This document shows, piece after piece, positions 2,656 to 45,857 of a DNA stretch of 47,909 nt (position 1 is its first letter; each line of letters begins with the position of its first letter). Under the pieces are notes generated by a model that had not been told where the DNA came from, did not search any database, and saw only the letters and a list, made by a program, of their open reading frames with translations. Made by a program: the position numbers and the translations under genes. This DNA is from a virus, in the IMG/VR virus record IMGVR_UViG_3300042507_005008, positions 1 to 47,909 of that record; one strand, 5' to 3'.

Positions 2656-5600
2656 TTATGCTTGTCTATTAATAGTAATAGTATCACTACCAGAATCATC
2701 ATATACTAAAATATCAAATGAACTGATAATACCAGGACCCCAATTTGCTCCATTACTAGAGGACAATGTAATTGTAGTTAATCCGGTTGTAGAATTATAT
2801 GTGTCTTTATTTGTATTGGGCTGGAACCTATTAAATCCACAGTATGTCCAATTGCCTAATCCTGTTCTATCTATTTTAACCTTCATGCGTTGTGATAGAG
2901 CCGGATAAACGCCTCCATCTATATTTAATGTTACAGTCCAGGAATTTGATGATTGTCCCCAAGATACTGTGCTACTAACTATTGATAGTGGTTTACCAAC
3001 ATTCATAATACAATCTTTATAGAAAGCTTTTGGTCTCCAGCCAAGAACAAAAATAGGAGCCAATGGATTTTCTCTTGTTATTACACGATAATTATATTGA
3101 CCATACAAAATATTAGGTCTACCAGATATCAAAAAGTCAAAATTGCCTTCTGTATTACTATCTATATTAGCTGGCATGATCTTAATATTATCTTCTATAG
3201 TGGAATGAATTTTAATAGAATCATTAGTAGAGAATCCTCTGTATATACCGGATGGGGTTGAACCGCCACCAGCTATAAGCACTAAACCTGTATTAGAAAT
3301 AGAGTTAACCGATAAAATAGTAGCTTTATCTTCCATAGTATAGAATACGCTACTAAATCTATCACTATATTGTGATGTAATTTTATCTAGAATAATATTT
3401 GTTGTGGCCTCGGTCATAGATAAATTATTATGTCTAATATAAATTAGGTTACCACTTAGATCTATGTTGGTGATTCTTGTTACTGGTTTAAGATCAATAT
3501 CTAGATTAAGACTTTGACTACCATAATTTTTGCTAAATACTATTGGACGAGTACCCATATTAGGAACAGACAGTCCGCCAAGATCAAAATTACCACTAGT
3601 TAGACCAGTAATAAAAACATCTAGTATTTGTGTTGGCTGGAATGGCGGAGTGTATGTTACAGTAACTTCTACTAAGTTATTTACATCGAATACTTCATAT
3701 ATATCTGTTTGACCTGGAGAGCTATTTATACTTGCTATCCAGTCATTGCGAACAACTAATGAGGTTGGAGCAGAATAGTATCCTGCTGTTTTTGTAAAAT
3801 CTGGGATATTGCCGCTGTTGTTGAATTTACGAGACACGACACTATTAAGTATAATTCCAGAAATACTAGGCAAATACGAACTCGAAGACCATATGCTACC
3901 ATTATTACCAGAAATTGATAATAAATATGGATAATTAGTATATCCGTCTGGACATAACCCTCCTATACAAATATCTGTTGGTATATACCCGCCAAGGGCT
4001 AGTCCACGAATTCCATACTGTCCATTCAGGCTATTGTAGTTTATAAGTTCTCCACTATAAATATTAAACGTATCTGGATAGGATATTGTTACAGCTGGGA
4101 ACGAGTTTTCCGTTGGTATATCTCCTAATAATCCAGCTTTATGTACCCAAGAATATATGCTAGGCGTGGCTGTTGGATTAGTGTTTGGATCGAATGTTGG
4201 AAATGCACCACCGGCACAACTATAATCTATTCTAAATGTAGCTCCTTTATTATTTGCGCTTTGTGCCAATGTGCTTGATGTTAGTCTGATGGGAGCACTA
4301 TTCTGGATAGCCACAGAAACTGATCCGCTTTGAATAGTACTATTACTGACTAAATTGGTAACAGTATAATAGGCAGTGCCAGCCCTTTCGTTTTGCGGCT
4401 TGTTTCTTTCAATAATAGAATCTCCATAAGCTAATCTAGAATTTAAAGAAAATGTTGTTCCGTCGTCTCCATATGAACGATTAGCTAGTGGTGGAGGGTC
4501 CGTGATTTCTATATAAATTGGGGGTAATGATACCCCACTAAATCTTACAAAACCTGTCTCTGGACATGTTGTATATTTAATTTCTGCTAGTCTAGATGTA
4601 TCATCAACAACATTATATCTCAGGCCCGTTCCAAAAGTATCAGATGATGCAAAATATCCCCCAGTAGGTATATAGCCACTAAAACTTGGAGAAACAAAAC
4701 CATATATACCATATCTACCTTGAAGATCAGCAGCAACCCTGCCATTACCTAAAACACAACCCTCTGTACTAAGAGTAACATCACCAACATTAAATACTGT
4801 TGCTAAATCAGCTATTGCTTTAACAACAGGAGTTGAGATAACAATCTCTGCTATTCCTGTGTGTGGGGAAGAAATACTTTCGTTGCTCTTAATATAAAAT
4901 GAATTTAATGGAACATGATTAGGTAAGCCGGTCAGGGATGTAGCTTTTTTAACATAATAATTACCATCATTATTATTCAACTCTAGCATGTTGAAATAAA
5001 TAAAAGAATTATTTTGTATATTAGTATATTGAGCACTATGGCTGGCCACTGGATGTAATACAAGAAAGTCTGTTGAGGTACTGTCTGCGCCACTATACAT
5101 AACAGGAAATTTTGCACAGTGCGGGCTGAATGGTATGGTTGAATAACATGTCATTTCTAAAACTGAAGCTTCTGGTTGTTTAACCGTTATACCACCCATA
5201 GTAATCTTGTCATTACCAGTAGATGGTGTGAATATAGGATCGGCATTTTCAAAATATAAAGTCATATATATATTAGGCGCCATTGGTGTAACAGAGGTGC
5301 CGAATATAATTTCTTGTGTCTTTTTCTTGCCTCTCGCGTCGATAATTGTGAGATAGAATTTATCAGGATACTCAGAAGAACCACTTGGTGGATAATATGA
5401 TACAGACCCTTGTATGGTCAGTACTCCGCTATTCACATTGTCGTAGTGTGGAGCATTGAATAAGTTGCCTTCTGGTCCAGAATATTGTATTGAATATGTT
5501 AAACCAGTTGGTAAAGATCCGCTAGTAATTATACCGCTTAAACCAGTTGGTATTGGGCATACAGATCTATTAGCTGGTCCAAATTTATAGACATTGAAAT

Positions 5601-11600: not shown

Positions 11601-14600
11601 TTTCATCAACAATGATGCCATTTATTTTTTCTTTATTTTCTGTTACGATTGAATAATTATTTTCAGTGGTAAAAAAAACATCTATTAATGTGACTGGATG
11701 TGTTATATATTCAAAATTGCTTTCATTGTCCCCGATAAGCGTATCGACTTCAGAAGATAGTGTATTTTCTAATTTTTCATCGAACAGCTTAGAATAGGAT
11801 ATCTTCTTAGACCATGCCACAGACTTTTGTGTATTATCTTTATATGCCAAGTAAGATAAATCATCTTCTATTTTTAGATCATCGATTGTTCCTTCTTGTT
11901 CAACCTTAAAAGAAAGTTGGGGAATTGAATATTCATGGTCTAATGCGTCATTATTTTCTGTTAAAACAAGACCCTTTGCTTCCTGTATAAGTCCTCTGCC
12001 CAAAATAATACTAAAATCACTAATTTCTTTTGCTCTAAGATTGGTTCCAAAACACTCGCTTAAGTTTTGCTCTCCTAAATATTGTCCAGTAAATACTGCA
12101 AAATCTCTATATGGTATATAGATATTATCAAAAATAAATAAATTACCACTAATTGGAGTTCCGCTTAATACTGTTGGACGATATGTTTTAGTGACTTTGG
12201 TGTTGCCAGATAATCCTATGCTAGGATCTGAAATAGGCAAAGATCGAGCAAAAACATTTGTGCCGATACCAAATAACTGGGGAGCACCGCTAAGTGTAAC
12301 AATATTACTGAAAGTCTTAGTCGTTGGTTGAGCATGACGGAATAGGTCGCTGCCTTTCATAAAAATTCCAGACACGGAATTAGACGCAGAACCAAAGAAA
12401 ATATAAGGATTATAACCACCATTAACTAATAATTCTCCAACTAATGTGTCCTTACTATTTTCTAGTACGGTATTTTTAGCAAGTTGAATAGAGTTGATCT
12501 TTAGTATTTCACTAATTCCAGAAGCTAAAACATTGGATGTTATAACTGGATTGCCAGAAACTTCTATAATAAGATTATTGAATGCATACAAACCAGAAGC
12601 GTCCGTGGCTTTAATATCTATTGAATACGATCCAATGTCGCATTGATCAGGGGTGCCGCTTAATACAAGATTAATAGCATCAAAAGATAACCATCTAGGT
12701 AGTGGGTGTCCACCCTTAATATTTGCTGAATATTGCAATACTCCGCTGTCTGGTTCCACAAACATATTACCTGGTAAACTATATACAAAAACATTATCGA
12801 TAGGAATTCCAGTAGGTTCTAATACAATATTAACTTTTGGTATCTCATTGAGATTTTGTACATAAACATATAGAACTTGTTCGTAAAAAGAAGAAAAGTT
12901 TATATTTTGAGGTGTGCATCTTACTCTAATCGGGATAATATTATTATTCTCATAGTCTAAAGCTTCATTAGTATATAAAAAGTATCTATTTTTATCTCTA
13001 GTAATTCTAAATTTATTATTAAATTCAGAAAACGATCCATTAACTAACTCATAATTCATAGGAGCAGAGATAAAATCTAGTGGTTGATAATTTGTATCAA
13101 AAAGTCTTATACTTTGATAATTATCAATATTATATCTAACATAAACGCCGGTATGAACATTAATATCTGATAGAACTGAGCTATAATTACATGCTAAGTC
13201 TGTTCTGGCATATATGTCTACATTGCCACTATTATTAGTAAACAAAGGAGCAATTTCAATAGACTGACCATCTATGAGACGATCTATTCTTGTGGCGGTG
13301 GTGATAGAAAACGACGAATCACCATAAGCGTCTGGTTCATATACAAATCCAGAATTCTGTAATCCTATAAGAGATGCAGCCAATGGATTATTAATGTCTC
13401 CAGCTCCTCCGTCATTAACAAATACAATATTTTCTCCTGTATTAAATATTGGAGATGTCCTGGTTTGAGCACCAAGAATATTTAGTGCCTCTCCATCAAC
13501 CCAAAGCTTATTGCAGCTTTTAAATAAATGAGCAGAAAAATCATCTATGGTAATAGATACTGGTCCAGATATTATCGTTGGATTAATGTCTATCGTTTTT
13601 ATTGGAGCATTGATATTTATAGTGCTAGAGGTTATGCTAGTAATCACCCTACGGTAATTATAAATATTATTAGAGAAATCCTTATATTGAATTTTGATTG
13701 TCATATTTGGTTTAATAAAAGTATGCAAAGCATAGCCATACTGATTAACTAAATAAGCAGAATTATATTGTATAGATGTTCCTTGAATAGCTGCTGGAAT
13801 ATTAGTGTTAAAGAACTTATCATATCCACTCGGAGCATTAACTACCAACTTAGCGCCAGAAGGTAAACCATATTTTACAGCCATCCATTTTGGTGCAGTA
13901 ACAGCGACGGAATTAGAATTAGGTGCTCCTTGAACAATATATCTACCAGATGGCGGCAAATACATTGATGCAGAGGAAAACTGACACTCTAGCATCGCTC
14001 CGGCTACGGCCTGATGAGGTTTTTGTGTTTGAATAACAAAAGTATTATTTAAAGGATGTTGTGTAAAAGATTCATAATATCTTGGTCTATGAATGTCTAA
14101 TACTAAAGATCCGTCATGACTTTTTTCGAATACGCCAGTAATAGCAACGTTTTCTGGAGTATAAAAATAATAGGGATATAGATATCTTAAATCAACGCTT
14201 AGATTTTGTGCTGGCGGAGATTTAGCCCATACATATTGTGTTTTTGTAGCTTCTTTACCAGATGACATATCCTGATAAGTCCACTTATGCACATGTCTGC
14301 GTAATTGAGAATTATTATAAGCTTCTGTTTTATAACCAATATTCGGTACTGTGGTAGTATTAATAATATTTGAAATATTGTTGGGATCACGATAAGTAGC
14401 ATTATTAATAATACCACTAGTAAAAGAAAAATGAGCCACCCCAGAACTTAAGCCTTTATTCATTAATAATTCGATATTATATGCAATAGTTTTTTCTTTT
14501 GGTAGTTGTATGACTGGAGATAAAGAAATCCAGCTTCCGTGTGTTTCTATGCCTTTCAGGTATGCTGCTACAGTTGAATATTGACCATGTTCTAAAACAG

Positions 14601-16797
14601 TAGTACCTGTTGTTGTGCGGAATGCACCAAAAGCAATCTGGTTCTCTAGTTCTGCTAAACCATATGATCCAAGAGCGATAGAGTTTTTGCCTTTGGCTAT
14701 AGAACCATAATTGAGCGCAACAGAATTGATACCACTTGCCGTATTGTAGGATCCAATTGCCGCAGATTCTGTTCCATAAACTTTATTGTGATCTCCTATA
14801 GCAATAGAATTTTCTGACTCAATAATATTAAAAGTACCAGCAGTTAGTGAGGATAAGCTACTGCTGCCAATAGTATTATCCTCTCCAATAACTAAATTGA
14901 CATCATTAGTTATTTCTATGTCTCCGTCAACTCTCTGTTTAATGTTCGATGAAGTAATTTTTCTAGCTGGTGAAACACTATCTGTAAATTTAGGAATATA
15001 ATTATTTGTTCCTTCTATATGATCGAATGTTACATTGTTATAAGAAAAACTACCAGTAATATTACTAGCATTTCTGTAATAAGCGCCGTCTCTATCGTCT
15101 AAAAGATCTGCATTAAGATTGTTGACTTTTATACTATTCCCAGCTAAATCAAAAGGAGGAGAAGACGGCGGGGCTCCATTAGATAAAAATCTGATTTGAC
15201 CAACAACATCAATTCCTTGTAGAAATTTCTTTAGTGCATTGATTGTTTGTTCTTGATTAGTATTGATATAAATCTGATCAGCGATTTCTCTAAATAATAC
15301 TGTTAACTTATCTCCTTCTAAATTTTGAGTAATATAAATAGTGCTAGCAGACCCGCCATTGATATCGTCTTGAAAACTATTTCCATTGCCGTCAACATCG
15401 CCAACAGCACCAGAACCATAAATATTGGTTATAAGTCTTAATTGATTTTCTGTTGGGTAATATGCTAAAATACCAGTTTTGTTAGCAACTGTAGCACCAT
15501 ATTGAAACGTAAATCCTCGTGGTTCAGACGGTAGTATATTAGGACTATTTAAACCAAATAATGGAAGATTGTCATATAGACTTGTTTCTCCACCAGATAC
15601 AGCTAATCCACCAGCAACTGTTAAAAATCCATCCATCCTATCGCTTTCACTAGCTTTTAATGGTCTAAATCCTAGAGAATCTACGATATCGTTATAAGAA
15701 GCATAATAAACGCCATCTATAAGACCTTTAGCGTTTATACGAAATTTGGTTCCGTATTGATCACCAGAAGCGTGTAGGTTTGGTAGTCTGTCTAAAGAAA
15801 GAACACCGGTTAAGTTGGTAGAATCTCTATAGAAACTACCTTGTAAACCATCTAACAAATCTGCATCTAAGCCAGACCCAGATCCATCGTTGCCGGGATG
15901 CCATGGAGTATATCCTAAAATTGATAAAATATCTAATGCCGTTAATGATAATCCACTAACTACTCTGCCTTTAGAATCAGTAATAACTTTCGTGTATGTT
16001 CCAGCAACGCCTGTTTCCGATAGTGATATAGAATTTTCTTCAACTAAAATATCAGCAGATGCACCTATTTGTAATAGAACAGATCCATTTGGAATAGATA
16101 ATTGTCCACCACCAACTAAACCAGAGCCAGCCTCAATGGTGATACTAGATCCACTAACTACGATAGTACCGGTATTAAGAGGTAATGATGTTAGTTTTGT
16201 CCCATTATAATATATAAGTTGGTTTAAATTAAATATGTCATTATTAGTTCCACCTTTGCTAATTGGCACCATACCAGAAATAGCACCAAGACTCAGTTCA
16301 GCAGTTCTAGCTATGGTATTATCTACTACGATTTTATTACTAGAAACCGTTAAGCCTTCTCCAATTTTAATATCCAAAATAGCAGTATTATTATTTACTT
16401 GTGTTTTCTGAAGACCAGTACCAGGAATGATACCTGTAATAGCATTGCTGTTAGCAGAAGCTAGATCTACAATATCTTGGATAGTATAAGACGAACTAGC
16501 TAATTTGTTTCCGTCATATGATATCAAATATCCACTATTAAAACTAGTATTATTAGTGCCTCCGCTAGATACAGGTAAAATACTAAATGTCAAACCATCT
16601 TTACCAGCGGGGCCTGCTGGGCCAACTAATCCTCTTTCTCCTTGCGGTCCTTTTTCGATAGTTACCAAGTCTATGGAACTAGTAGTCAGATCAGATACAA
16701 TAATATTTGTTGTTGTTATCGTACCTTCTTCGGTTCGCAAACTTACTAATAAGTAGCGATTTGGTTGAAATTGTTCAGATACTGATACTATGCTCAT
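2656..16797 (-). CDS. Giant modular virion/fibre protein (about 4,713 residues)
   Basis: One uninterrupted frame of 14.1 kb, nearly a third of the window. The ATG at 16797 is chosen because it forms an ATGA overlap with the upstream stop. Modules in order: attachment-like N-terminus (1-48); Gly-X-Y collagen stretch (about 50-68); two GGTNN fibre repeats (about 75-200); two phage-fibre ADLLD units (about 305 and 565); YadA-like left-handed roll repeats such as NSIAIG and NSIALG (about 655-720); then thousands of residues of beta-rich sequence with Ig/cadherin-like units, for example WLSFDAINLVLSGTP near 1370 and later PTGL/SGTP units. The C-terminal kilobase is again Ig-like. It has few cysteines and no recognisable enzyme domain or transmembrane segment. 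It is probably a very long fibre or tail-surface protein; a tape-measure role is unlikely because the sequence is beta-rich rather than helical. Confidence 0.85.
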   Translation of the reverse strand: MSIVSVSEQFQPNRYLLVSLRTEEGTITTTNIIVSDLTTSSIDLVTIEKGPQGERGLVGPAGPAGKDGLTFSILPVSSGGTNNTSFNSGYLISYDGNKLASSSYTIQDIVDLASANSNAITGIIPGTGLQKTQVNNNTAILDIKIGEGLTVSSNKIVVDNTIARTAELSLGAISGMVPISKGGTNNDIFNLNQLIYYNGTKLTSLPLNTGTIVVSGSSITIEAGSGLVGGGQLSIPNGSVLLQIGASADILVEENSISLSETGVAGTYTKVITDSKGRVVSGLSLTALDILSILGYTPWHPGNDGSGSGLDADLLDGLQGSFYRDSTNLTGVLSLDRLPNLHASGDQYGTKFRINAKGLIDGVYYASYNDIVDSLGFRPLKASESDRMDGFLTVAGGLAVSGGETSLYDNLPLFGLNSPNILPSEPRGFTFQYGATVANKTGILAYYPTENQLRLITNIYGSGAVGDVDGNGNSFQDDINGGSASTIYITQNLEGDKLTVLFREIADQIYINTNQEQTINALKKFLQGIDVVGQIRFLSNGAPPSSPPFDLAGNSIKVNNLNADLLDDRDGAYYRNASNITGSFSYNNVTFDHIEGTNNYIPKFTDSVSPARKITSSNIKQRVDGDIEITNDVNLVIGEDNTIGSSSLSSLTAGTFNIIESENSIAIGDHNKVYGTESAAIGSYNTASGINSVALNYGSIAKGKNSIALGSYGLAELENQIAFGAFRTTTGTTVLEHGQYSTVAAYLKGIETHGSWISLSPVIQLPKEKTIAYNIELLMNKGLSSGVAHFSFTSGIINNATYRDPNNISNIINTTTVPNIGYKTEAYNNSQLRRHVHKWTYQDMSSGKEATKTQYVWAKSPPAQNLSVDLRYLYPYYFYTPENVAITGVFEKSHDGSLVLDIHRPRYYESFTQHPLNNTFVIQTQKPHQAVAGAMLECQFSSASMYLPPSGRYIVQGAPNSNSVAVTAPKWMAVKYGLPSGAKLVVNAPSGYDKFFNTNIPAAIQGTSIQYNSAYLVNQYGYALHTFIKPNMTIKIQYKDFSNNIYNYRRVITSITSSTININAPIKTIDINPTIISGPVSITIDDFSAHLFKSCNKLWVDGEALNILGAQTRTSPIFNTGENIVFVNDGGAGDINNPLAASLIGLQNSGFVYEPDAYGDSSFSITTATRIDRLIDGQSIEIAPLFTNNSGNVDIYARTDLACNYSSVLSDINVHTGVYVRYNIDNYQSIRLFDTNYQPLDFISAPMNYELVNGSFSEFNNKFRITRDKNRYFLYTNEALDYENNNIIPIRVRCTPQNINFSSFYEQVLYVYVQNLNEIPKVNIVLEPTGIPIDNVFVYSLPGNMFVEPDSGVLQYSANIKGGHPLPRWLSFDAINLVLSGTPDQCDIGSYSIDIKATDASGLYAFNNLIIEVSGNPVITSNVLASGISEILKINSIQLAKNTVLENSKDTLVGELLVNGGYNPYIFFGSASNSVSGIFMKGSDLFRHAQPTTKTFSNIVTLSGAPQLFGIGTNVFARSLPISDPSIGLSGNTKVTKTYRPTVLSGTPISGNLFIFDNIYIPYRDFAVFTGQYLGEQNLSECFGTNLRAKEISDFSIILGRGLIQEAKGLVLTENNDALDHEYSIPQLSFKVEQEGTIDDLKIEDDLSYLAYKDNTQKSVAWSKKISYSKLFDEKLENTLSSEVDTLIGDNESNFEYITHPVTLIDVFFTTENNYSIVTENKEKINGIIVDERVWFSTYPFRIRRNLRENIELLPTGIVYNPLRVVNPPTDDDNEGLFVSNIDYARSDLLHAYDSWTFLEHINNPILYVNGIGSNDTTQLITDDRNYTGYFYNSSPFEYAILSTEDNFGLIPETEKLNGSRIELSNRYELLDTTKIYPNNGKIFAELLEEELLCENNDRLVHDYAILAHSGSAYILFPGTINQIVLKYPTVYSYTATEVNNGSLGYYEDNLENRPTGLSFTEPDFYYSWGKLVPYYAYTNEYAIRLSNIYDRASTSGLLVYTGIAPADDNYFPEESLYNSVGLSSGDCPVNIPNSIINGMVVHDDLVGSQYVTGVATFYTSFAANDITITSNKDFNKDLRINDYVYLYEALSNQANALFPRTDTYTDVLSSTSNTIKVRNLFLYPSNRVVTHTGSIRLNLDRNHEQIIKSPDYVNRLPIKFNSVYNTNSARLPKNYLFDIIGVSGQKVVSSDNARYLLKSDEYLDSIVSGTYMTNGFKFFGSLFHDHEIIYDVRKLDKEFSSTYTNITFEYRKDTKILSLNLPTGIVSIFDNIRLSNFQPLSPSMIWDHNATYNTGFKVFKENLSIRNIDDVPDKDFVLLERSAAVLQPENKERLSFITDIFAASSSGTCYLDVNLTNRLDRGFILNYNDNLSKTTGHQYLDYNSGYSFTGIIPRYHKIISTTGTLNDTRIGYASIFNSGNQQWSSGIRTVRRAEPTDIGYVDFYHIYSTGFTNHINNIPYLNMKGVGSPERWYITDIISTSGSNKMLQFLYLGHNTNTIKIFGGIQTSSEDSGFSITKITYSQQTLIDKLADLGVVSGVTPIFTTGTNGLSGNLDITIPVTRFDTITIELNGNTTSNFNYLQLNTYVENTVNTPGLLLDSAIPIFTDKLYYPRNNQPLSNSFYILPSISTSTKYCNTNKPYNKNNTIYYNGNLIVIDNLSSVKSYCLENEQLRIKDLNRMPVSSGYARFIQKINPVNQLYSITGISLDGSLSIPSSIYDYQYASLRENTVRHLLPFGTGTGFLPNIGTISFIPHYSGTFDLINYNNIYLQSYGGYTARWPQDVDAVISNSPLTGVYAVFADEKICNSNKLCVTITPYLGSSFASLNSNDSYYFDFDSVASSISTTYRITDFINSNKISISPNYNSSLVGSSGLVYIIPSKYNIKTHLYPNIDNTFITQSLAVGLNTQLVQNSINYFDSSTKKWTHLFHLVKNIPIYSGYALQFNNDTTNIIYNNKDKIGITNLSIYNNTGMLFDNIGENFTIYSDSLGETIRISTSGGSPMLVTPASVNIPKIYISGLASYRTLTNASPLLYGYRAGSGWDIGVEIIPMNKTGVYPLTIIARDETGDSYKTVNMIIKDKKSVNTTYPTGYFTTSDTEWFLNFDTTGLDLLNDFPGNQGITLFGTPNDFSYDIDIRDASTISVQGYRLAGGGGSTIPFSTGIWNPVIRFADFYTSETIAVGTGTIKILSSLNDRPPFVPTLNKVKTDYYVDISQLQNISFYIPVYEQVANPSTFFSAPGINTTTSISWDGDTNRYIATVIPKNTGDSSYLSETKYIAGGQFSYNVNQYLYVDGSPSTVNYSSSTYNFNLTFYRPMMVSYYYNSSSSGIFSLDQPWTYEFALQEGVIKHRPDKPPRVKLYNTPSIGDNSNIDLSYKVRYRYNENGNYWIVLLEGKPDIYGRYAANTGTYNIKFTADDQIASSITGSFNITYKHTKSINYIQSNIYTTPNNEFFINADIVDKASGNKASNQITFAGNNSLFISPNQASMQFDSNLNIWEFYATGNKLIDKWDARLIVDTNSQYPSLTLQCKGIADDKITAVAKVNLLELQNNNLDIVEGLPIKITGINNGNQNTPFTPESGLIVQQGEKWQLNFKTIFGLQSPQNPPSIFLSGTPTVCSGYDPRLDPLYNTDLPPNSQLHKCIATQPLFNTADKSWNFSFSGDPSCLLSGELDFSIIAIDTNLANNPIYIEPSDSIQSVFTYIPTTQDHPVPNIVQGSAPEFNIKTAIKPGCDSYFNVYKFGPANRSVCPIPTGLSGIITSGSLPTGLTYSIQYSGPEGNLFNAPHYDNVNSGVLTIQGSVSYYPPSGSSEYPDKFYLTIIDARGKKKTQEIIFGTSVTPMAPNIYMTLYFENADPIFTPSTGNDKITMGGITVKQPEASVLEMTCYSTIPFSPHCAKFPVMYSGADSTSTDFLVLHPVASHSAQYTNIQNNSFIYFNMLELNNNDGNYYVKKATSLTGLPNHVPLNSFYIKSNESISSPHTGIAEIVISTPVVKAIADLATVFNVGDVTLSTEGCVLGNGRVAADLQGRYGIYGFVSPSFSGYIPTGGYFASSDTFGTGLRYNVVDDTSRLAEIKYTTCPETGFVRFSGVSLPPIYIEITDPPPLANRSYGDDGTTFSLNSRLAYGDSIIERNKPQNERAGTAYYTVTNLVSNSTIQSGSVSVAIQNSAPIRLTSSTLAQSANNKGATFRIDYSCAGGAFPTFDPNTNPTATPSIYSWVHKAGLLGDIPTENSFPAVTISYPDTFNIYSGELINYNSLNGQYGIRGLALGGYIPTDICIGGLCPDGYTNYPYLLSISGNNGSIWSSSSYLPSISGIILNSVVSRKFNNSGNIPDFTKTAGYYSAPTSLVVRNDWIASINSSPGQTDIYEVFDVNNLVEVTVTYTPPFQPTQILDVFITGLTSGNFDLGGLSVPNMGTRPIVFSKNYGSQSLNLDIDLKPVTRITNIDLSGNLIYIRHNNLSMTEATTNIILDKITSQYSDRFSSVFYTMEDKATILSVNSISNTGLVLIAGGGSTPSGIYRGFSTNDSIKIHSTIEDNIKIMPANIDSNTEGNFDFLISGRPNILYGQYNYRVITRENPLAPIFVLGWRPKAFYKDCIMNVGKPLSIVSSTVSWGQSSNSWTVTLNIDGGVYPALSQRMKVKIDRTGLGNWTYCGFNRFQPNTNKDTYNSTTGLTTITLSSSNGANWGPGIISSFDILVYDDSGSDTITINRQA

Positions 16798-17234
16798 GTT
16801 ACACAGTTTCCACAATCATCTTGTAAATCCGTATCGCATTGAAATGCGTCTGTGTCAGGTACATTACGTGGTACTAGACCTATTCCACCTTGTAAAATTC
16901 TAAATACTTTTCTGCCGCCACCAGAATATAAGTCATTGGGTTCTTGTAATTCTAGATCATATCTTGCAGAGCCGAACGTATAGTTTAAGGTTTCGGAAGC
17001 AGGGATTTTTAGAACAATTTTACCTAATAATGGATCTATAGTAAATTCATATTGAGAATTTCTTGTATTAGTGACAAATGTTCGAACGGTTGGAGAAGTC
17101 TGGTCCTCTATCCATCTTAATCTAGCACACCAATTCGTTAAATTAATTGGAAGTTGATTATCGTCTTTATATTCGAAAGCAATAACAAAAGCGGTTCCCT
17201 TTTCTATAGAAAAATTGTACTCTGCTGCTGGCAT
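16794..17234 (-). CDS. Small BppU-like virion protein, paralogue A
   Basis: A 146-residue protein beginning MPAAEYNFSIEKG. It is clearly paralogous to the 133-residue protein encoded at 34195-34596: both share the MPAAEYNFSIE start, a YKDD-x-x-x-PIN segment, WCARL, YDLELQ and a final FRI/IRI strand. The N-terminal beta-sandwich pattern (sequence describing a 'quasi-energy' strand followed by PINLT and an ARL/AR strand) is common in phage baseplate-upper or fibre-linked proteins. The C-terminus has a short Cys-rich tail (CDTDLQDDCGNC). Its stop overlaps the ATG of the giant gene (ATGA), so the two are co-translated and possibly partner: a plausible job is to attach the giant fibre to the virion. 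That partnership is inference. Confidence 0.65.
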   Translation of the reverse strand: MPAAEYNFSIEKGTAFVIAFEYKDDNQLPINLTNWCARLRWIEDQTSPTVRTFVTNTRNSQYEFTIDPLLGKIVLKIPASETLNYTFGSARYDLELQEPNDLYSGGGRKVFRILQGGIGLVPRNVPDTDAFQCDTDLQDDCGNCVT

Positions 17235-17809: not shown

Positions 17810-17819
17810 TACTATAATA
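17810..17819 (-). promoter_or_regulatory. Candidate leftward promoter box TATTATAGTA
   Basis: The bottom strand reads TATTATAGTA about 32 bases upstream of the connector-like gene. Near-copies occur upstream of three other leftward transcription units (18427-18436, 32059-32068 and, with one change, 45356-45365). No convincing -35 hexamer lies upstream here, which would fit recognition by a phage late sigma factor, although that is inference. Confidence 0.4.
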
Positions 17820-17844
17820 TACACCCAATAGGGGAATAGATTTA

Positions 17845-34631: not shown

Positions 34632-34651
34632 TTAATACACCCATCACAATA

Positions 34652-37821: not shown

Positions 37822-39990
37822 TTATTGTTGATTAATAAAAGCATAGTATGTGGCTTTAGCCTGTTTTTGTTCATCTGATGACAATTCTCTGCCCAACTCA
37901 GATACTACGCCTTTTATCCATACACTATAACCTTCTAAAGATTGATGATTTATATTAGATATTTTTTCTGAAATATATTCAGAATTAATTGTGCAGAAGG
38001 GCTTTAGTCCAAAAAGTATTTCTGCTTTAAGGTTTTCTAGCTCTTTAACCTCTGTGCTTGATAGTGATCGCAAATTTTTTTTCTGATAAAATTCTAGCAT
38101 AATGGGATTGATAATACTAGCTATATTTTCTTGTGCTTGTGACGCCCAAAGAATTAGACTGGCTCCGGTTTGCGGTCGAAATTCTTTTTGTTTGCGCTTT
38201 TCGGAATCTCTGGATAATTTTGGCCTGCCTTGCTGCGGCTCCCCTGGCAAAGATTCTGGCGAATCTTTGGCCAACTGTGTTGGTTTAAAAGCTTGCCTTA
38301 GTTCTAATGAGCTTTTTTCTCCATTTTTTCTAGCATCTAATTGTAGACCAACTTCGCTAGGAGATGCTACGCCACTTTGTAACGCAATTTTCTTGAGTCC
38401 GTTTTCTGGTTGTGGATCGTGCCAAGGCCCGGATTTTTTAACCATTCTTTCACTCTTTCTATCTCTAGCTTCTCTATTAAGTCTACTCTTTTCCATGTCC
38501 GGATCAATGCCAAATCTATGTTGTAATAATTCATCGCTAATAAGACTTCTATCAGCTAGTTGTATTAATAGAGCCTTTTCGGCATCTTCGTTACTGAGAT
38601 CCATTTTATCAAATTCTACACGAGCAGGGTATCTAAATCCCATGGCTTTTTGTACTAAAGCTATCTCTCTGTCCCAAAATTCTGTTAATGCATCTCTTCC
38701 GTATTGAAGTCTCTGTGTGAGAGTTTTTAAGCTGATAAAGTTATTTGTTGTTCCAGCTGCTCCATACGTTCCAGTTAGTGTTGGAGGAATACCTAAGCCA
38801 GCATAAACACTATTAAGGTGTGGCGTATATTTAGCTTCTCCTAAAAATTGATGAACATTAGTTTTACTCTCAATTAGTTCTATATCTGGACCCCAAACAA
38901 GATCCATAGTGCCGCCACCAACATTATTACCAAGAATCTGAGCCAGCTTTGCTGCCGCAGCTTTTGTTGGAGAAATTTTATGTTCAAGGCTACCGAGTTT
39001 AAAAATGCGAATATTACTAATTGCGCCGTCTAAAGCCGCCATATCTGCTAATTTTAATTTTTCTATAACTGTAATATCGTCCATAATACTATAGATCATA
39101 GGATAAGCCCAGCTTTGCCAATCATCTTTCTTGTAATGAAAAACTAAAACCTTATCCGGGTCTAGAGGAAAAGGCTTCTTGGTTTTAGCTGCTTCAACAA
39201 TTTGAATTGGTAAATTAGTTACTATGGCTTGTTCTTGTGGTGTTTTGGGAGAATTAATAACTCTTCTTAAGGCTGCTGGTAATACTAGTTCGTAGGTTTT
39301 GCTTGGAGAAAAAGAGGATAAAGCTCCAGCAGATACCTCAACATAAAATGGATCAATGAAAGTATATTTCCATGGAATTTCTCTTTTTTCTAATTTGATA
39401 GTTTCTGTTTCGTTTATTTGTAAATCAGCATTACCAACGGCTTTATATAGTTCATCAGATACTTTAAGACTAAGTTTTCCAGTTTGTCTATTAATAACAA
39501 CATTGCCTGTTTTGTATAGATTATTAAGAAATCGTTCGCTGCGTTCTTTGCCTTTGATTTTTTTAAACCATGTTCTGTAAAATCTTTCAATTCTTTTGTT
39601 TTTATGAACTAGACGAATACCTTGGGATCCAAAATCGCCCATAAGATCGACAACATTTTTTACTAAACCTATTCGTTGGTAAATATCTTCTGCTTTTTTA
39701 ATAATACCTTTTATTCTTTTAGGAACTGCTTCGTCTGGTCTAAAGAAGTCATAATCACTACGCGTTAGGCCAGGACGACCATCAGTATTAGAATCTAAGC
39801 CAGAATAGTCTAATCCATAGCGTCTCATAGCAGAAGAATGTTCTACTAAAGTATATTCCGACATAGCTTCTGAGGATGTTTTAAGAGCTTCTTTTTTACT
39901 GCCTAGATCGTCTCCCCATGTAACATAGGCTTCTTCACCAATTATGGAAGCATCATTAATAGCGCTACTTTTTGGATATTTTTTGCTCAT
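37822..39990 (-). CDS. Portal protein
   Basis: A 722-residue protein between the terminase large subunit and the protease-scaffold. Features consistent with portals: an N-terminal region with QRIGLVKNVVDLMGDFGSQG, IPWKYTFIDPFYVEVSAG, PDKVLVFHYKKDDWQSWAYP and SIMDDITVIEKLKLADMAALDG, then NNVGGGTMDLVWGPDIELIES and the YTPHLNSVYAGLGIPPTLTG loop, followed by a helical wing. The C-terminal 170 residues are polar and Lys/Gln-rich. No transmembrane segment. The order terminase-portal-protease-capsid is standard. Portals form a dodecameric ring at the capsid vertex through which DNA passes. Confidence 0.8.
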   Translation of the reverse strand: MSKKYPKSSAINDASIIGEEAYVTWGDDLGSKKEALKTSSEAMSEYTLVEHSSAMRRYGLDYSGLDSNTDGRPGLTRSDYDFFRPDEAVPKRIKGIIKKAEDIYQRIGLVKNVVDLMGDFGSQGIRLVHKNKRIERFYRTWFKKIKGKERSERFLNNLYKTGNVVINRQTGKLSLKVSDELYKAVGNADLQINETETIKLEKREIPWKYTFIDPFYVEVSAGALSSFSPSKTYELVLPAALRRVINSPKTPQEQAIVTNLPIQIVEAAKTKKPFPLDPDKVLVFHYKKDDWQSWAYPMIYSIMDDITVIEKLKLADMAALDGAISNIRIFKLGSLEHKISPTKAAAAKLAQILGNNVGGGTMDLVWGPDIELIESKTNVHQFLGEAKYTPHLNSVYAGLGIPPTLTGTYGAAGTTNNFISLKTLTQRLQYGRDALTEFWDREIALVQKAMGFRYPARVEFDKMDLSNEDAEKALLIQLADRSLISDELLQHRFGIDPDMEKSRLNREARDRKSERMVKKSGPWHDPQPENGLKKIALQSGVASPSEVGLQLDARKNGEKSSLELRQAFKPTQLAKDSPESLPGEPQQGRPKLSRDSEKRKQKEFRPQTGASLILWASQAQENIASIINPIMLEFYQKKNLRSLSSTEVKELENLKAEILFGLKPFCTINSEYISEKISNINHQSLEGYSVWIKGVVSELGRELSSDEQKQAKATYYAFINQQ

Positions 39991-40047
39991 ATATTTTTAA
40001 TACCATTGTATTGGGATTGTAATGCGATTGTATCTTTAATACACTAA

Positions 40048-42084
40048 TTATCTATAAATTCCGCCGTAAATATCGTCGTTGGCCCCGGCTACAAACCAAT
40101 CTGGTCCTTTATACATCTGTCCTTCATGTTTTACTATTTGATCTCTGTTACCTCCAATAACCTCATAGTTATTTTGAGGAACTAAAGCTATTCTTTGTTG
40201 TCTAGCTATCATATTAGCTATTACTAAAGCACTATATCGGTCTTTTCTTAGTCTTCCTTTTTTACCGTTTTGTAGTTTAACTTCTGGAGTATCCCATCGA
40301 TCTCTTCCTCCGGACCCTGTACTGGTTTGTGTCATTACTATAGTAGTAAGCTCATTTTTTAGTTCTTCTATTTCTAAAATGCATTCACTGAGGCTGTCAT
40401 ATAGTGGAGATAAATCTGTGTTCATAATATCTTTACCTTCTTTATCTAAAGCTAATCCAAGTGTTAATTGATCAAAGCGAGGAAATAGCAAAGCCTTATC
40501 CTCTAAGTCTTTTCTTAGTCCATGATTAGCCTGGCCAGTCCAATCTGCTCTAACAAATTGAATTAGTTCAAGAATATGTTGTCCTGGTTGATCATCAGTG
40601 TCTTTAGATTTATCATAATCAATAACAGGCCATATTAAAGATTCTCCTTCTTGAAGACGATTAGGGTCGTGTAAAGCTTCTTCAATAGATACTCCACCAC
40701 CTTGAGCATCAAGCCCGATGCGTAAAGGAGGAAAGCTTTTCATTAAATCTCGTATCTTTCTAGCACAATAGCTATAAAAATCATGGTCTTTAATCAGCCC
40801 TGTTTTTTGTCTTTCTTTAAAATTATTACGATTAGTAGTCCAACAATAAACTACTCTACAATGGTCTTTATGAACTTCTAATATAACAATACTAAAGTTG
40901 TCTCTTTCAGAAGCAGGGTCTATACCATATACATAGTGATGATTAGCGTTTCCAGTTACAGTTGCATCAAATAGAATAGGTTTACTATCTAGTAATATGG
41001 GTTTGGTATCACTAACAACACAACTCTCTATAAGGCTTCGTTTAAAAAATCCGTCACTATCAGCAGTAAAGCAAGCAGCGTATTCCATATTATATATGCC
41101 AGTATGAATAGTTGCTTTGGCTCGTGCCACTTGTTTATCATCCATAAAACCTTTGGGTATTAATTCATACGGTATGCGAATAATACTATAGTCTTGCCAA
41201 TTAAAATTATCTGGAACTTCTCCATTAAATATTTCTCCTAGCTTTCTATTGTCTCCGCCGCTTTCTATAATTGCTTTATATCGTCTCCAATAGGATGCAA
41301 AGTGTTTAAAGGCATAATCAGCAGTTCCACTAATAATAGCTTGGTTGCCCATTTTATAACTTAAAATTTCTAAATCATTATTCCAAACACCAGCATCTTT
41401 CATAGCTTGTTTACGGGCTTCTTCTTTAACGTTCTGAATAGGACTAGCAGATACAGCAGCGAATCCAGCTACTACTGTTTCATAAATGTCCGGAGATATT
41501 GATGCGAACTCGTCTGCGATGATAATGTGTGCTCTTAATCCTCTAATTTTGCTACCATCGCCCATTGGTACAGCAATTGTCCAGCTGTCTCCTAACCTTA
41601 TTGTACATCTATCAACATCTCGACGCGGACCATCATCAGATCCTGTAAATATACTGCGTAAGATTGGACTAGTACGCCACATATTTTCCATATATTCAAA
41701 GATAATTTTACTTTGACGAAATGCAGCACCAACAATAACTATTTTAGTTCCCGGATGAAAAATACATCGTAAAACAGAATACAAAGCTAATAAAAAGCTT
41801 TTACCCCAACCACGACTAGCAATATACATAGGGAATGGACGATTCCAAAATTCCTGTAAAATTACTACTTGCATAGGATGAAGTTCAATATTAAAAAGTA
41901 ATTTGCAAGTGGCACCAAAATATTTTGGATCACGTAATAATCGTATAAGATGTAAGTCTGGATTCTCTATCTCTTTTTCGGTTCGTCGAATCATAGGATT
42001 ATTCGGTATGTTTAAAACCGACAAATCACCAAGACCCAACCAAGCATTATCAAATATTTTTTTCTGGTTGTCCGTAAAGCTCAT
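40048..42084 (-). CDS. terL: Terminase large subunit
   Basis: A 678-residue packaging motor. The ATPase half has Walker A SRGWGKS at about 90-96, an unusual but functional-looking version, and Walker B HIIIADE with D191 and E192. The nuclease half has YGIDPASERDN near 385, where D is the first metal ligand, and GLDAQGGG near 456 for the second. It packages DNA into the prohead and cuts the concatemer. It overlaps the upstream ERCC4-like gene by 35 bases, so their translation is probably coupled. Confidence 0.9.
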   Translation of the reverse strand: MSFTDNQKKIFDNAWLGLGDLSVLNIPNNPMIRRTEKEIENPDLHLIRLLRDPKYFGATCKLLFNIELHPMQVVILQEFWNRPFPMYIASRGWGKSFLLALYSVLRCIFHPGTKIVIVGAAFRQSKIIFEYMENMWRTSPILRSIFTGSDDGPRRDVDRCTIRLGDSWTIAVPMGDGSKIRGLRAHIIIADEFASISPDIYETVVAGFAAVSASPIQNVKEEARKQAMKDAGVWNNDLEILSYKMGNQAIISGTADYAFKHFASYWRRYKAIIESGGDNRKLGEIFNGEVPDNFNWQDYSIIRIPYELIPKGFMDDKQVARAKATIHTGIYNMEYAACFTADSDGFFKRSLIESCVVSDTKPILLDSKPILFDATVTGNANHHYVYGIDPASERDNFSIVILEVHKDHCRVVYCWTTNRNNFKERQKTGLIKDHDFYSYCARKIRDLMKSFPPLRIGLDAQGGGVSIEEALHDPNRLQEGESLIWPVIDYDKSKDTDDQPGQHILELIQFVRADWTGQANHGLRKDLEDKALLFPRFDQLTLGLALDKEGKDIMNTDLSPLYDSLSECILEIEELKNELTTIVMTQTSTGSGGRDRWDTPEVKLQNGKKGRLRKDRYSALVIANMIARQQRIALVPQNNYEVIGGNRDQIVKHEGQMYKGPDWFVAGANDDIYGGIYR

Positions 42085-42529: not shown

Positions 42530-42782
42530 TGGCTAATATTCTTAAAAAGGTTTCTGCATAAATTTCTTCCATGCCTTTAATTAAATCATGATGATATTTG
42601 CAAAGAGTAATACCGTTATTAATATCAAATCTTAATCCAGGATAGTTTGCCCAAGTTTTGATATGATGAGCATTAATTTTTCGTTTTAGAGTACAATTTG
42701 GCCATCTGCACTTATACTGGTCTCTTTCGTAAACGCTTTTGCGCCACTGTTTATATTGAGAATCTCCAAAATTTCTAAACAT
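42513..42782 (-). CDS. HNH endonuclease
   Basis: An 89-residue protein starting at ATG 42782, which lies inside the last codons of the dehydratase gene (GATCATGTTTAG, out of frame). HNH features: C25 and C30, H39-H40, N56, then C61 and H64-H65 (CKYHHD). The two Cys pairs could bind zinc. HNH proteins next to terminase genes are known to help terminase cutting in HK97-type phages, so a packaging role is more likely than a homing role, though no intron is present nearby to test it. Confidence 0.8.
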   Translation of the reverse strand: MFRNFGDSQYKQWRKSVYERDQYKCRWPNCTLKRKINAHHIKTWANYPGLRFDINNGITLCKYHHDLIKGMEEIYAETFLRILANDRLQ

Positions 42783-43764
42783 GATCGTATACTCTAAGAT
42801 CACTTTCAACCATTTCGTTAACTAGGTCTTCGAATGAATAGTCGCTATGCCACCCAAGACTCTTTTGGGCCTTGGTTGGAATACCTCGTAAATATTCTAC
42901 TTCTGCTGGTCGATATAAATTTTCGTCAATAGATAGGTGATCTTTGTAATTTAATCCGGCTTTACCAAAAGCAATTTTAACAAAATCATAAACACTATAT
43001 GTACTGCCCGTTGCAACAACATAATCGTCCGCAATATCATTTTGTAACATTAGCCACATAGCTTTAACATAATCTTTAGCGTGGCCCCAGTCTCTTTTGG
43101 CACTTAAATTTCCTAGCTGTAAAACTTTATTAGTGCGATTATTAACAAGGTCGCCGATATATTTGGTTATTTTTCGCGTCACAAAGTTTTCGCCTCGTCG
43201 TGGACTTTCATGATTAAATAATATGCCGCAACATCCGAATAGCCCATAAGCCTCACGATAAATTCCTACTAATCGATGACTAGCTAATTTGGCTACTCCG
43301 TATGGACTTTGAGGAATAAACATGGTATCTTCGTCCTGGTATGGTTCATCATATTTAATAGTATCATAGTTTTTACCATACATTTCGCTGGTGCTAGCTT
43401 GATAAAAGCGTGTTGCAGGAGAGTGCGCTCTAATGGCCTCTAGTATGTTGACTACTCCTAGAGTGTCAATTTCTATGGTTGTGGACGGATTTTTAAAGGA
43501 TGATCCTACGTGGCTTTGTGCTGCTAAGTTATAAAATTCATCGGGCTGATATTTATTTATTAAATTAGATATGCCTGCTGGATCCGTCAGATCGCATTCT
43601 TCTAAAACTAAATAGGGGGATTTTATTAGGTGATGGATTCTATCAAAATTATTAATACTACTTCGTCGATGCATTCCAATGACTTTATAGTTCTTGTCTA
43701 GTAGTAGTTCTGCTAAATAGCTACCATCTTGTCCAGTAATGCCTGTTATGATTGCGGTTTTCAT
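42775..43764 (-). CDS. gmd: GDP-mannose 4,6-dehydratase
   Basis: A 329-residue short-chain dehydrogenase/reductase. The NADP-binding GITGQDG lies at residues 8-14, the family R35-S-S segment (MHRRSSINNFDRI) follows, and the catalytic set T125, E127, Y155 and K159 (STSE and YGVAK) is present. This enzyme turns GDP-mannose into GDP-4-keto-6-deoxymannose, precursor of GDP-fucose, rhamnose or perosamine. The chain is close to the usual 340 residues and apparently intact. It lies between the probable terminase small subunit and the HNH gene, so it is an accessory metabolic gene within the packaging block; its product may feed surface-sugar synthesis in the host. Confidence 0.9.
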   Translation of the reverse strand: MKTAIITGITGQDGSYLAELLLDKNYKVIGMHRRSSINNFDRIHHLIKSPYLVLEECDLTDPAGISNLINKYQPDEFYNLAAQSHVGSSFKNPSTTIEIDTLGVVNILEAIRAHSPATRFYQASTSEMYGKNYDTIKYDEPYQDEDTMFIPQSPYGVAKLASHRLVGIYREAYGLFGCCGILFNHESPRRGENFVTRKITKYIGDLVNNRTNKVLQLGNLSAKRDWGHAKDYVKAMWLMLQNDIADDYVVATGSTYSVYDFVKIAFGKAGLNYKDHLSIDENLYRPAEVEYLRGIPTKAQKSLGWHSDYSFEDLVNEMVESDLRVYDHV

Positions 43765-44594
43765 GAATTTTCCTCTCGTGCTAAAACAATCTCTGGGGTA
43801 AGAAGCGGACTATCCAGAGTATTATCAGCATAAGAGTGATATTCGGATAGTTTATTTTTATAGTTATCGGCTGCTATTTCCATAATAGCCATTTCTTTGC
43901 CTTCTTTTTCTCTTGTTTCTTCGTCTTCAAGCATTCGTATTAATCCGACCCAGGAGCTTTTACCATCCTCTATTCTTTTGATTCGTTGTTCACGAGTAGC
44001 TTTAAGGTCTTTGCTAATCTTTTGCTGTTCATTAAGCAGTTTGGTATACTCATTAGTATAATTAGCGATACTGTTGCGGGCAAATGATAGTTGTGTTTCG
44101 AGATTGGCCAGTTTTGGAATATCTCGTTGATCTTCACTTTTGGCATATTCTTTATCCACTTCATTTTGAAGTTTTTCGGTATCACTAATGTGGCGTTTGC
44201 GTTCTTTCATGCTGCGGTTAATAAGAATATCAATAGTGATAAATTGTTTGATTTGAAGTTCTTCTGCGGGCAAAACATCTTCTCGAAACTGTTTAATTAA
44301 TCCTACCCAAGTATTTTCAAAGTAAGATAATTCTCCACTATCTTTATCAAACTGTTTTTCAATCTCAGACCAAAAGGTTTTTAGATATAACTTTTGTTTA
44401 AGTATTTGATCATCTGATGATGTTGATGATAGTTGAGTTTGTTGAACATACTTTTCAATAGGGGCGGTACTACGATTAAGATTAGCTGCAATTTGTTCAA
44501 TAGTTAAAGCGCTAATATTATCTCTTATATACTTTTCTTCGTCTAATCCTAGTTGTCCTCTTTTTTTGGGACCTTTATGATTTTGATTTTCCAT
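43761..44594 (-). CDS. Probable terminase small subunit
   Basis: A 277-residue protein. Residues about 17-52 (LDEEKYIRDNISALTIEQIAANL followed by RSTAPIEKYVQQ) look like a helix-turn-helix DNA-binding domain. Residues 65-250 are nearly all helical and charged, with possible coiled coils (SDTEKLQNEVDKEYAKSEDQ, LNEQQKISKDLKATREQR) that could form a ring. A DNA-binding helix-turn-helix followed by helical oligomerisation regions, encoded just upstream of the terminase block, is typical of terminase small subunits, but no direct family motif was seen. Its stop overlaps the dehydratase start. Confidence 0.55.
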   Translation of the reverse strand: MENQNHKGPKKRGQLGLDEEKYIRDNISALTIEQIAANLNRSTAPIEKYVQQTQLSSTSSDDQILKQKLYLKTFWSEIEKQFDKDSGELSYFENTWVGLIKQFREDVLPAEELQIKQFITIDILINRSMKERKRHISDTEKLQNEVDKEYAKSEDQRDIPKLANLETQLSFARNSIANYTNEYTKLLNEQQKISKDLKATREQRIKRIEDGKSSWVGLIRMLEDEETREKEGKEMAIMEIAADNYKNKLSEYHSYADNTLDSPLLTPEIVLAREENS

Positions 44595-45213
44595 GAGTAT
44601 CTAGTATCTCTTTAATAATAGGTAAAATCTTTTGTAGATCAGACTTATAAATTTTATCTCCGTGTTTTAGTTTAAGATAGGTTTCTCTATGTGGTGCAGG
44701 AATGTGCTTGTCTAGTAGGTCGAAAATTTGTTTATTATTAACATAATCGGCTACTGATTCTAATGAGTGTAAATTAAGAGAATTATCTCCAACATCTTCA
44801 ATAGCAACGGGCTTCATGATATTCTTCTTATTCATATTGCGAGTATACCAAGCATCATATTCTTCGCAATCATTTTTATTTTTAAATTCTGTGCATTGAT
44901 TTTGTGAATTGGCACAGTGTTTGTCATAAAAGCGACAACTTAGACAGGGTTTATCGGGCCTTTGGTAGTTGTCTCGTTTGTAATTAAATAACCGATTACG
45001 AACATGGGTCCATAAAAAGTTTTCTAGTGGGCGAGAGTTATCGTACTTTTTTAAACCTTCAAGAGCAAATATAGCTGCCTGTTGTTTCATGTCTTCAATA
45101 CTATGATATCCAAAATTAAATTTGTAGGCTAATCTTTTGCTAATGTTTTCTAAAACTGTAAGAAACTCTTCTTCATTCACGTTGTTCGGTAGTGGGTTTT
45201 TCTTTTTGCTCAT
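44575..45213 (-). CDS. Sigma-like transcription factor with Cys cluster
   Basis: A 212-residue protein. Residues about 13-80 resemble sigma70 region 2: helical ISKRLAYKF, MKQQAAIFALEGLKKYDNSR and the LENFLWTHVRNRLFNYKRD segment, equivalent to the core-binding and -10-recognition helices. A cysteine cluster follows (C90, C93, C100, C107, C116) that could bind zinc. No obvious region 4 is present, as in T4 gp55-type late sigma factors. It is the second leftward ORF from the divergent promoter, so it would be made first in the late operon and could direct transcription of the packaging, head and fibre genes. The family assignment is from motif reading only. Confidence 0.65.
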   Translation of the reverse strand: MSKKKNPLPNNVNEEEFLTVLENISKRLAYKFNFGYHSIEDMKQQAAIFALEGLKKYDNSRPLENFLWTHVRNRLFNYKRDNYQRPDKPCLSCRFYDKHCANSQNQCTEFKNKNDCEEYDAWYTRNMNKKNIMKPVAIEDVGDNSLNLHSLESVADYVNNKQIFDLLDKHIPAPHRETYLKLKHGDKIYKSDLQKILPIIKEILDTHGKSKS

Positions 45214-45322
45214 ATAATAATTCTGCTATGCTTTTTCCTTCGGGCATATTAAGATCGTTAGTAATATCTACGGTTCCTGATGCTTTAATGTCTAAAGTTG
45301 AATTTGCTAATGAAAAATTCAT
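45173..45322 (-). CDS. 49-residue ORF heading the leftward transcript
   Basis: A short gene with ribosome site AAGAGG seven bases before ATG 45322. It encodes 49 residues: MNFSLANSTLDIKASGTVDI, a short DLNMPEGKSIAELLYEQK helix and a charged end. It overlaps the sigma-like gene start by 41 bases, and since that gene has a poor ribosome site, translation of the latter is probably coupled. It directly follows the TTGACA-N16-TATTAT promoter. I do not recognise the family. It may be a regulator or cofactor of the sigma-like protein, which is speculation from position. Confidence 0.7.
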   Translation of the reverse strand: MNFSLANSTLDIKASGTVDITNDLNMPEGKSIAELLYEQKEKPTTEQRE

Positions 45323-45333
45323 AATTGAACCTC

Positions 45334-45364
45334 TTGCGTTAAAATGATCAAGTATTAGTATAAT
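45334..45364 (+). promoter_or_regulatory. Weak rightward promoter for the Myb-like gene
   Basis: TATAAT at 45359-45364 with TTGCGT at 45334-45339 and a 19-base spacer. The spacing is poor, so activity may rely on an activator or be low. The RBS AAGGAA lies before ATG 45407. Confidence 0.35.
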
Positions 45365-45367
45365 ACT
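45351..45367. promoter_or_regulatory. 17-bp palindromic operator AGTATTAGTATAATACT
   Basis: Perfect inverted repeat with seven-base arms (AGTATTA / TAATACT) around GTA. It covers the -10 element of the leftward promoter (TATTAT at 45365-45360) and the rightward TATAAT at 45359-45364. This is the usual arrangement for a repressor site that controls both directions. The divergent small helix-turn-helix gene at 45407 is an obvious candidate binder. Confidence 0.6.
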
Positions 45368-45387
45368 GTTGTTACACTATTTGTCAA
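45360..45387 (-). promoter_or_regulatory. Leftward promoter TTGACA-N16-TATTAT of the late region
   Basis: TTGACA on the bottom strand at 45387-45382, 16-base spacer, TATTAT at 45365-45360, then the 49-residue gene start 38 bases on. The -35 hexamer is the sigma70 consensus. It is the first promoter of the leftward block and overlaps the palindrome. Confidence 0.7.
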
Positions 45388-45406
45388 CTTAAATAAGGAA
45401 AAAATT

Positions 45407-45625
45407 ATGGCTAACTACAAAAAGTGGTCAAACGAAGAGATGGAATTTATAAAGAATAATCACGGGGTTGTGCGAGATGAGGAACTTGCTGTTAAGCTTA
45501 GTCAAATGACCGGGCAAAATGTTACAACGGCCATGATCAGACGACAAAGGCGAAAGCTAAGTCTCAAAAAGAGTCGAGGCAGACCAAAGAAGCAAGGCAT
45601 CTTAGCATCAAATAATCAAAACTGA
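45407..45625 (+). CDS. Small DNA-binding protein (Myb/HTH-like with AT-hook)
   Basis: A 72-residue basic protein. Residues about 7-52 (WSNEEMEFIKNNHG, DEELAVKLSQMTG, VTTAMIRRQRRKL) resemble a SANT/Myb or helix-turn-helix fold, with the conserved Trp near the start. Residues 54-62 carry KKSRGRPKK, whose RGRP core is the AT-hook motif that binds the minor groove of AT-rich DNA. It is the first rightward gene after the strand switch, with a good ribosome site and an upstream palindrome. A regulator or nucleoid-type role, possibly auto-regulation, is inferred. Confidence 0.7.
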   Translation: MANYKKWSNEEMEFIKNNHGVVRDEELAVKLSQMTGQNVTTAMIRRQRRKLSLKKSRGRPKKQGILASNNQN

Positions 45626-45702
45626 TAGATTATAAAGACTATTCAGGGGCCATCTGTGAGGTTTAGGTGATACATTTATGGTATGTGTCGCTTACTGTTT
45701 AT

Positions 45703-45721
45703 GCCCTCCGGGCGGCTTTTT
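45703..45721 (+). terminator. Candidate rightward terminator
   Basis: GCCC-TCC-GGGC hairpin at 45703-45713 followed by GGC and five T residues, 80 bases beyond the Myb-like stop. Stem is only four pairs, so strength is uncertain. Confidence 0.5.
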
Positions 45722-45829: not shown

Positions 45830-45857
45830 TTGCAATTGCCGATACTATTTGTAGAAT
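45830..45857 (+). promoter_or_regulatory. Repeated promoter P1
   Basis: TTGCAA (45830-45835), 16-base spacer, TAGAAT (45852-45857). A T-rich tract precedes it and GCAAATAGTATGCCA lies upstream. Drives the 73-residue gene. Confidence 0.7.

Follow-up and report, generated by a model that had tools for sequence, protein, structure and literature searches.

Overlapping divergent promoters at a likely early/late hub in a large, uncultivated tailed phage

Late transcription in phage T4 depends on gp55, together with gp33 and gp45, and starts from a simple late promoter whose late box is TATAAATA. Temperate phages have divergent repressor/early promoter switches, of which lambda PRM/PR is the type. 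GcrA of Caulobacter is a sigma-70-binding cell-cycle activator that has a further part beyond its DNA-binding domain. Among jumbo-phage sigma factors, a published account describes a group 2 made up of minimal single-HTH-domain or RpoD-like versions (PMC7824862).

Here we describe a locus that resembles each of these systems in part. It lies in a 47,909-nt stretch of viral DNA (the window), which aligns along its entire length to a 128,328-base viral contig (the 128-kb contig), a single mismatch being reported. Two gene arms of that contig part at this site. One, of ~50 kb, consists mostly of small genes on one strand; the other, of ~57 kb, lies mostly on the opposite strand and carries the terminase and portal together with large structural genes. 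The preliminary description of this DNA had taken the leftward side to be the late region, and the leftward strand is indeed that of the structural (late) arm.

As in T4, the putative sigma factor is small and largely confined to region 2, a single box stands before structural genes, and the host polymerase would be reused. The box differs, being RGTGTAW here and TATAAATA in T4, and the sigma-like protein of this locus, unlike gp55, has a four-cysteine segment after region 2. The likeness to the lambda type lies in two opposed promoters within ~100 bp, with the gene of a small DNA-binding protein on one side. Here, however, the overlap involves the -10 elements themselves, the upstream regions compared revealed no conserved dyad operators, and the other side holds a sigma-like gene and packaging genes rather than early genes. 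The group 2 jumbo-phage factors redirect the host polymerase by a minimal sigma factor (PMC7824862), as the protein here would; this protein differs in joining a helix bundle of region-2 type to a cysteine segment.

The locus is likely an early/late hub and, as such, a variant of the phage sigma-factor switch, which is a known kind. We give a little less than even credence to the fuller account, in which this hub of an uncultivated large tailed phage would work by a sigma hand-over through RGTGTAW, with modulation by the HTH protein encoded on the other side. For a phage group whose HTH and sigma proteins are without deposited matches, the hub would point to a likely master regulator and to a late box that can be tested.

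The leftward operon and its sigma-70 region-2-like protein

The first gene of the leftward operon (45173-45322, minus strand) encodes 49 residues with the family motif GKSIAELL. A simple, crude pattern detected a similar ORF at 18 of the 34 loci examined, and its place before the sigma gene suggests that the product is a regulatory partner. The second gene (44575-45213, minus) encodes a sigma-70 region-2-like protein of 212 residues, in which four cysteines (C90, C93, C107 and C116) are invariant.

This protein is a member of the sigma-70 region 2 family. Its alignment (A2) comprises 40 rows, from 39 of the 68 sigma loci plus the window, with near-duplicates thinned by eye; 38 of these 40 members match PF04542 (sigma-70 region 2) at E<=0.01, and the window's own member scores 23.9 bits, just below the cut-off of 24. 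The protein also matches a PHROG sigma family, and no Pfam match to region 4 was found in it. The top structural matches of its predicted model (pLDDT 74, pTM 0.41) are sigma factors, among them the N-terminal domain of SigE (Z 8.9, 2.4 Å over 74 residues) and the T4 gp55 complex 7d7c_F (Z 7.8, 7.4 Å over 108). The C-terminal helices of the model have a pLDDT of ~80, and whole-chain alignments mostly give an rmsd above 20 Å. Sequence comparison with gp55 by hhalign returned a probability of 1.9% and an E of 0.025 over 40 columns.

Neither the sigma-like protein nor the HTH protein had a match among 50,697 deposited phage records, and PDB sequence searches with HTH and sigma profiles gave nothing useful. 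Further along the operon lie a 277-residue protein with a weak N-terminal HTH match (43761-44594, minus), the terminase large subunit (40048-42084, minus), for which the phage collection holds distant matches only (best ~25% identity), and a portal-like protein (37822-39990, minus).

Two other features of this arm are recorded as side observations. Between the HTH-like gene and the terminase, the late operon includes a gene of the GDP-mannose 4,6-dehydratase type (42775-43764, minus), and the late arm contains an open frame of 4719 codons (2656-16815, minus).

The late box RGTGTAW and two promoter classes

Promoter classes were counted in same-strand gaps longer than 35 nt, taken from the late arms of four contigs; the early gaps were drawn solely from three contigs, in four pieces of 20 kb. 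RGTGTAW occurs in sense orientation in 16 of 36 late gaps, with none antisense and 1.4 in shuffles, and in 1 of 41 early gaps. When the motif was fixed beforehand and applied to five further contigs, 16 of 36 gaps again carried it in sense and 0 in antisense, against ~1 by shuffling. The 32 boxes align to a consensus of GGTGTAT followed by A or T, no second conserved block is evident among them, and 29 of the 32 stand 34-56 nt before an ORF start. TTGAC[AT], in turn, is found in 17 of 41 early gaps versus 2 of 36 late gaps.

Within the window, late boxes are located upstream of the portal-like gene (40039-40045, minus), directly after a terminator (34635-34641, minus) and in a late-arm gap (17819-17825, minus). 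The order of terminator and then box also recurs in apparently matching gaps of the other three contigs, the gaps having been matched by eye.

The T4-like box TATAAATA was considered and rejected: it is not enriched in the 128-kb contig (33 occurrences vs 27.2 expected); the box enriched in late gaps is RGTGTAW. Its presence in 4 of 45 gaps in sense orientation, with 0 antisense, counts against that rejection. RGTGTAW may be read by the sigma-like protein or by another phage factor. In the open-licence literature, where absence is weak evidence, we found no published description of an RGTGTAW-type late box, no papers on phage late promoters with GTGTA and none on divergent overlapping phage promoters.

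In early-arm promoters of the 128-kb contig (L104-L106), the -35/-10 spacer contains a conserved box, CGAT/CCGATA. The pattern TTGAC-N4-6-CGAT-N6-10-TA[TG][AC][AC]T has 14 matches in the early arm of this contig vs 0.05 expected, and CCGATA occurs in sense in 9 of 41 early gaps and in 0 of 36 late gaps. A degenerate copy of this early-promoter box is seen near 45830-45857 of the window. Two further motifs, TTGACAAG (15 vs 4.2 expected in the 128-kb contig) and GTTGACWA (17 vs 8.6 expected), were evaluated as a regulon of the HTH protein. Because many TTGACAAG sites are the -35 of early-type promoters, this candidate was dropped and no HTH regulon is claimed.

Overlapping divergent promoters and the inverted repeat

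The two gene arms part at TAGTATAATA (45356-45365), which consists of overlapping, opposed -10 elements and has the family consensus TANTATARTA. The overlap is conserved in the family: the core is exact in 32 of 44 upstream regions, which are distinct by sequence but not independent, and a similar late-strand pattern would be expected in 0.2 of 44.

The leftward promoter, which serves the sigma operon, has its -35 TTGACA at 45382-45387 (minus) and its -10 TATTAT at 45360-45365 (minus), 16 nt from TTGACA; in the promoter scan it is strong, with 11 of 12 consensus letters. The putative rightward promoter, that of the HTH gene, has TATAAT at 45359-45364 (plus) as its -10. Its putative -35, TTGCGT (45334-45339, plus), is weak, lies 19 nt from TATAAT and 16 nt from TAGTAT, and shares bases with the complement of AAGAGG (45330-45335, minus), the ribosome-binding site of the leftward gene. 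This rightward promoter is weak overall and absent from the promoter-scan list.

Two additional elements lie on the leftward strand. AGTGTAA (45372-45378, minus), a copy of the late box RGTGTAW, is situated within the -35/-10 spacer, 55 nt from the first start codon of the operon. TTGATCA (45345-45351, minus; TTGRYMA in the family) lies in the initially transcribed region and is a candidate HTH site; it roughly repeats the -35 copy in direct orientation, at a spacing of 36-38 bp counted by eye.

Across the 44 upstream regions, whose loci are related and not independent, TTGAC is present on the late strand in 31, where 3.3 would be expected, and GTGTA in 23, where the expectation is 3.7; in 6 of these 23 it lies upstream of TTGAC. 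The TTGRYMA leader element follows the core in 23 regions with a wider search window and in 21 by a narrower rule. GTGTA is found in 9 of the 13 regions that lack TTGAC and downstream of TTGAC in 8 of the 31 that have it (Fisher p 0.015). In seven of these eight the offset from TTGAC to GTGTA is exactly 10, the eighth having 19, and by reading, the 10-nt offset was also seen in the L093-L096, L101 group of HTH-less relatives. An exact search for the hybrid pattern in six further contigs found it in one, the contig of L094. Many close relatives (e.g. L052, L045, L042) have TTGAC with no GTGTA in the spacer, so self-activation by the phage sigma factor is not general. The hybrid of host-type promoter and phage box is thus one of several states among the relatives.

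These counts bear on a rather unlikely alternative, in which the leftward promoter would be a plain host-type early promoter, the AGTGTAA in its spacer a coincidence, and RGTGTAW the target of another phage activator or of the host polymerase. The 11/12 score of TTGACA-16-TATTAT is what such a promoter would show, GTGTA is missing from this place in many close relatives, and the pairing of sigma factor and box is itself our reading. Coincidence, however, would have to account for the excess of GTGTA in these regions, even with the six copies upstream of TTGAC, for the 10-nt phase in seven of eight cases and in HTH-less relatives too, and for the frequency of GTGTA where TTGAC is lacking.

We keep to the sigma hand-over as the preferred reading. 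A promoter of host type whose spacer contains a phage box would be a compact design for a phage sigma factor that replaces the host sigma at its own gene. An extension of this reading to a widespread group of uncultivated phages with a late transcription system of a new kind, in which a minimal four-cysteine sigma would read the single box RGTGTAW and, with that box nested at a fixed 10-nt phase, the promoter would pass from host to phage sigma, is possible but somewhat doubtful.

The preliminary description placed control of this region elsewhere, in a perfect 17-bp inverted repeat. The repeat does exist, as AGTATTA-GTA-TAATACT at 45351-45367, and it overlaps both -10 elements as reported; the 17 bp are its total length, however, with 7 bp in each arm and 3 bp between them, and it is at chance level. 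The window contains 4 repeats of the 7+3+7 type vs 5.65 expected, and 49 with 7-bp arms and a spacer of <=8 vs 50.2 expected; among Markov shuffles of the 84-bp region, 9.7% contain a repeat of the latter kind. A repeat finder with a minimum length of 12 reported nothing over 45200-45600. Further copies, which the preliminary description had proposed to look for, did not appear: a search of the 128-kb contig with the 17-mer returned only the site itself, and the two matches of the 7-bp-arm pattern are both strands of one site. In the upstream regions of relatives the 7-bp arms were not found, except in three identical copies. Since TATAAT and TATTAT overlap as opposed -10 elements, a partial palindrome arises automatically.

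Flank dyads in the relatives were also considered. When the 32 regions with an exact core were thinned at 80% identity, 20 non-redundant regions were left, and their flank complementarity was 2.85 of 8 vs 2.27 in cross-paired controls; this register was the best of 7, the p of 0.02 carries no correction for that choice, and the candidate was rejected.

According to the preliminary description, a dimer of the 72-residue HTH protein would sit on the palindrome, cover both -10 elements and repress both genes. The HTH gene does adjoin a repeat that overlaps both -10 elements, and other imperfect dyads occur at the same place in some relatives, such as L052, where one register pairs 7 of the 8 flank positions. 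Nevertheless, the chance-level counts and the lack of arm conservation speak against the palindrome as an operator, and the model of the protein shows a single trihelical domain with no dimerisation part visible. We regard this dimer model as very improbable; control through the palindrome is not supported, and the palindrome itself is of no importance.

Of the auto-regulated early/late switch that had been proposed, the divergence of two arms, the late strand, the conserved -10 elements and the HTH partner stand, and the palindrome as its operator is not supported. A better basis for a switch lies in what the preliminary description had missed, the sigma-like gene and the division of promoters into early and late classes.

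The HTH protein, the proposed order of events and host leads

The divergent gene (45407-45625, plus) encodes a 72-residue trihelical HTH protein with a basic RGRPKK tail. It is probably a single-gene unit, because a terminator-like hairpin follows at 45702-45714 (plus). The model has a mean pLDDT of 83.6, with helices at residues 9-18, 24-35 and 41-50 and a low-confidence basic tail. Its best structural match is the DNA-binding domain of GcrA (5yiu, Z 7.2, 2.2 Å over 48; 5yiv_A, Z 6.8, 1.2 Å over 44), at ~20% identity; a small terminase matches equally well, and Myb folds come close (Myb R2R3 6kks_A, Z 5.3). The 72-residue protein has no room for the further part that GcrA has. Pfam gave no Myb or GcrA match for it. 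The AT-hook PF02178 reaches E 0.44 and 11 bits on the window's protein, against a cut-off of 17.4, and 19 of 37 family members at E<=1, the best being 0.002; alignment A1 of this family holds 37 of 44 planned rows.

The gene beside the switch, which the preliminary description called a Myb/AT-hook gene, encodes a trihelical protein of probable Myb/GcrA-like fold, and a related gene is the divergent partner at 56 of the 68 sigma loci. Among the other 12, contig ends truncate L044, L080, L082 and L103, and perhaps L098. No HTH gene was found beside the sigma gene in L072, L093-L096, L100 and L101, so the HTH gene is dispensable.

A single trihelical domain would be expected to prefer an asymmetric site, and direct repeats of the TTGAC type fit this expectation better than the palindrome does. 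The TTGRYMA element is present in 23 of 30 regions where the protein has an RRQRRKL helix vs 0 of 14 others, an association that is confounded by phylogeny; the element could also be conserved for transcription-start or leader reasons.

The reading of each box by a given factor, the sequence of events and the part played by the HTH protein are inferred as follows. Host sigma-70-type polymerase, to judge by the consensus, would first use TTGACA-16-TATTAT leftward and transcribe the 49-residue gene, the sigma-like gene, the terminase, the portal and the structural arm. The phage sigma-like protein would then direct the host polymerase to the RGTGTAW late promoters, recognition of this statistically defined box being presumed. 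With AGTGTAA in the spacer of its operon's promoter, the phage sigma would keep its own gene expressed once it had replaced the host sigma. Polymerase on one promoter would be excluded from the other, because the two -10 elements overlap, and the HTH protein may tip the balance between the directions and limit its own expression. It would do so probably as a monomer on TTGAC/TTGRYMA-type sites, not as a dimer on the palindrome.

Such competition might by itself suffice, the overlapping -10 elements making the promoters mutually exclusive while the HTH protein acts elsewhere. The strong conservation of the overlapping core agrees with this simpler account, but it leaves unexplained both the TTGRYMA element in the leader and the persistence of the HTH neighbour. 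We consider it unlikely, and continue to favour competition modulated by the HTH protein.

As to the host, a DUF1559 protein with a prepilin-type N-terminus is encoded in the 128-kb contig (L104:11190-12146, minus), and the family is present in 1 of 5 contigs vs 0 of 14 control genomes. According to one report, the DUF1559 family seems confined to the PVC superphylum (PMC4807772), and the gene may be a lead toward a host in that group. Two matches of the sigma search in metagenome-assembled genomes (MAGs), labelled Flavobacteriales and Alphaproteobacteria, are at odds with this lead. These relatives, L122 and L123, are short contigs binned into the MAGs and are possibly misbinned phage contigs. 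The early arm also carries genes for the UV-endonuclease UvdE and an ATP-dependent DNA ligase (L104:15364-16269 and L104:1975-3342).
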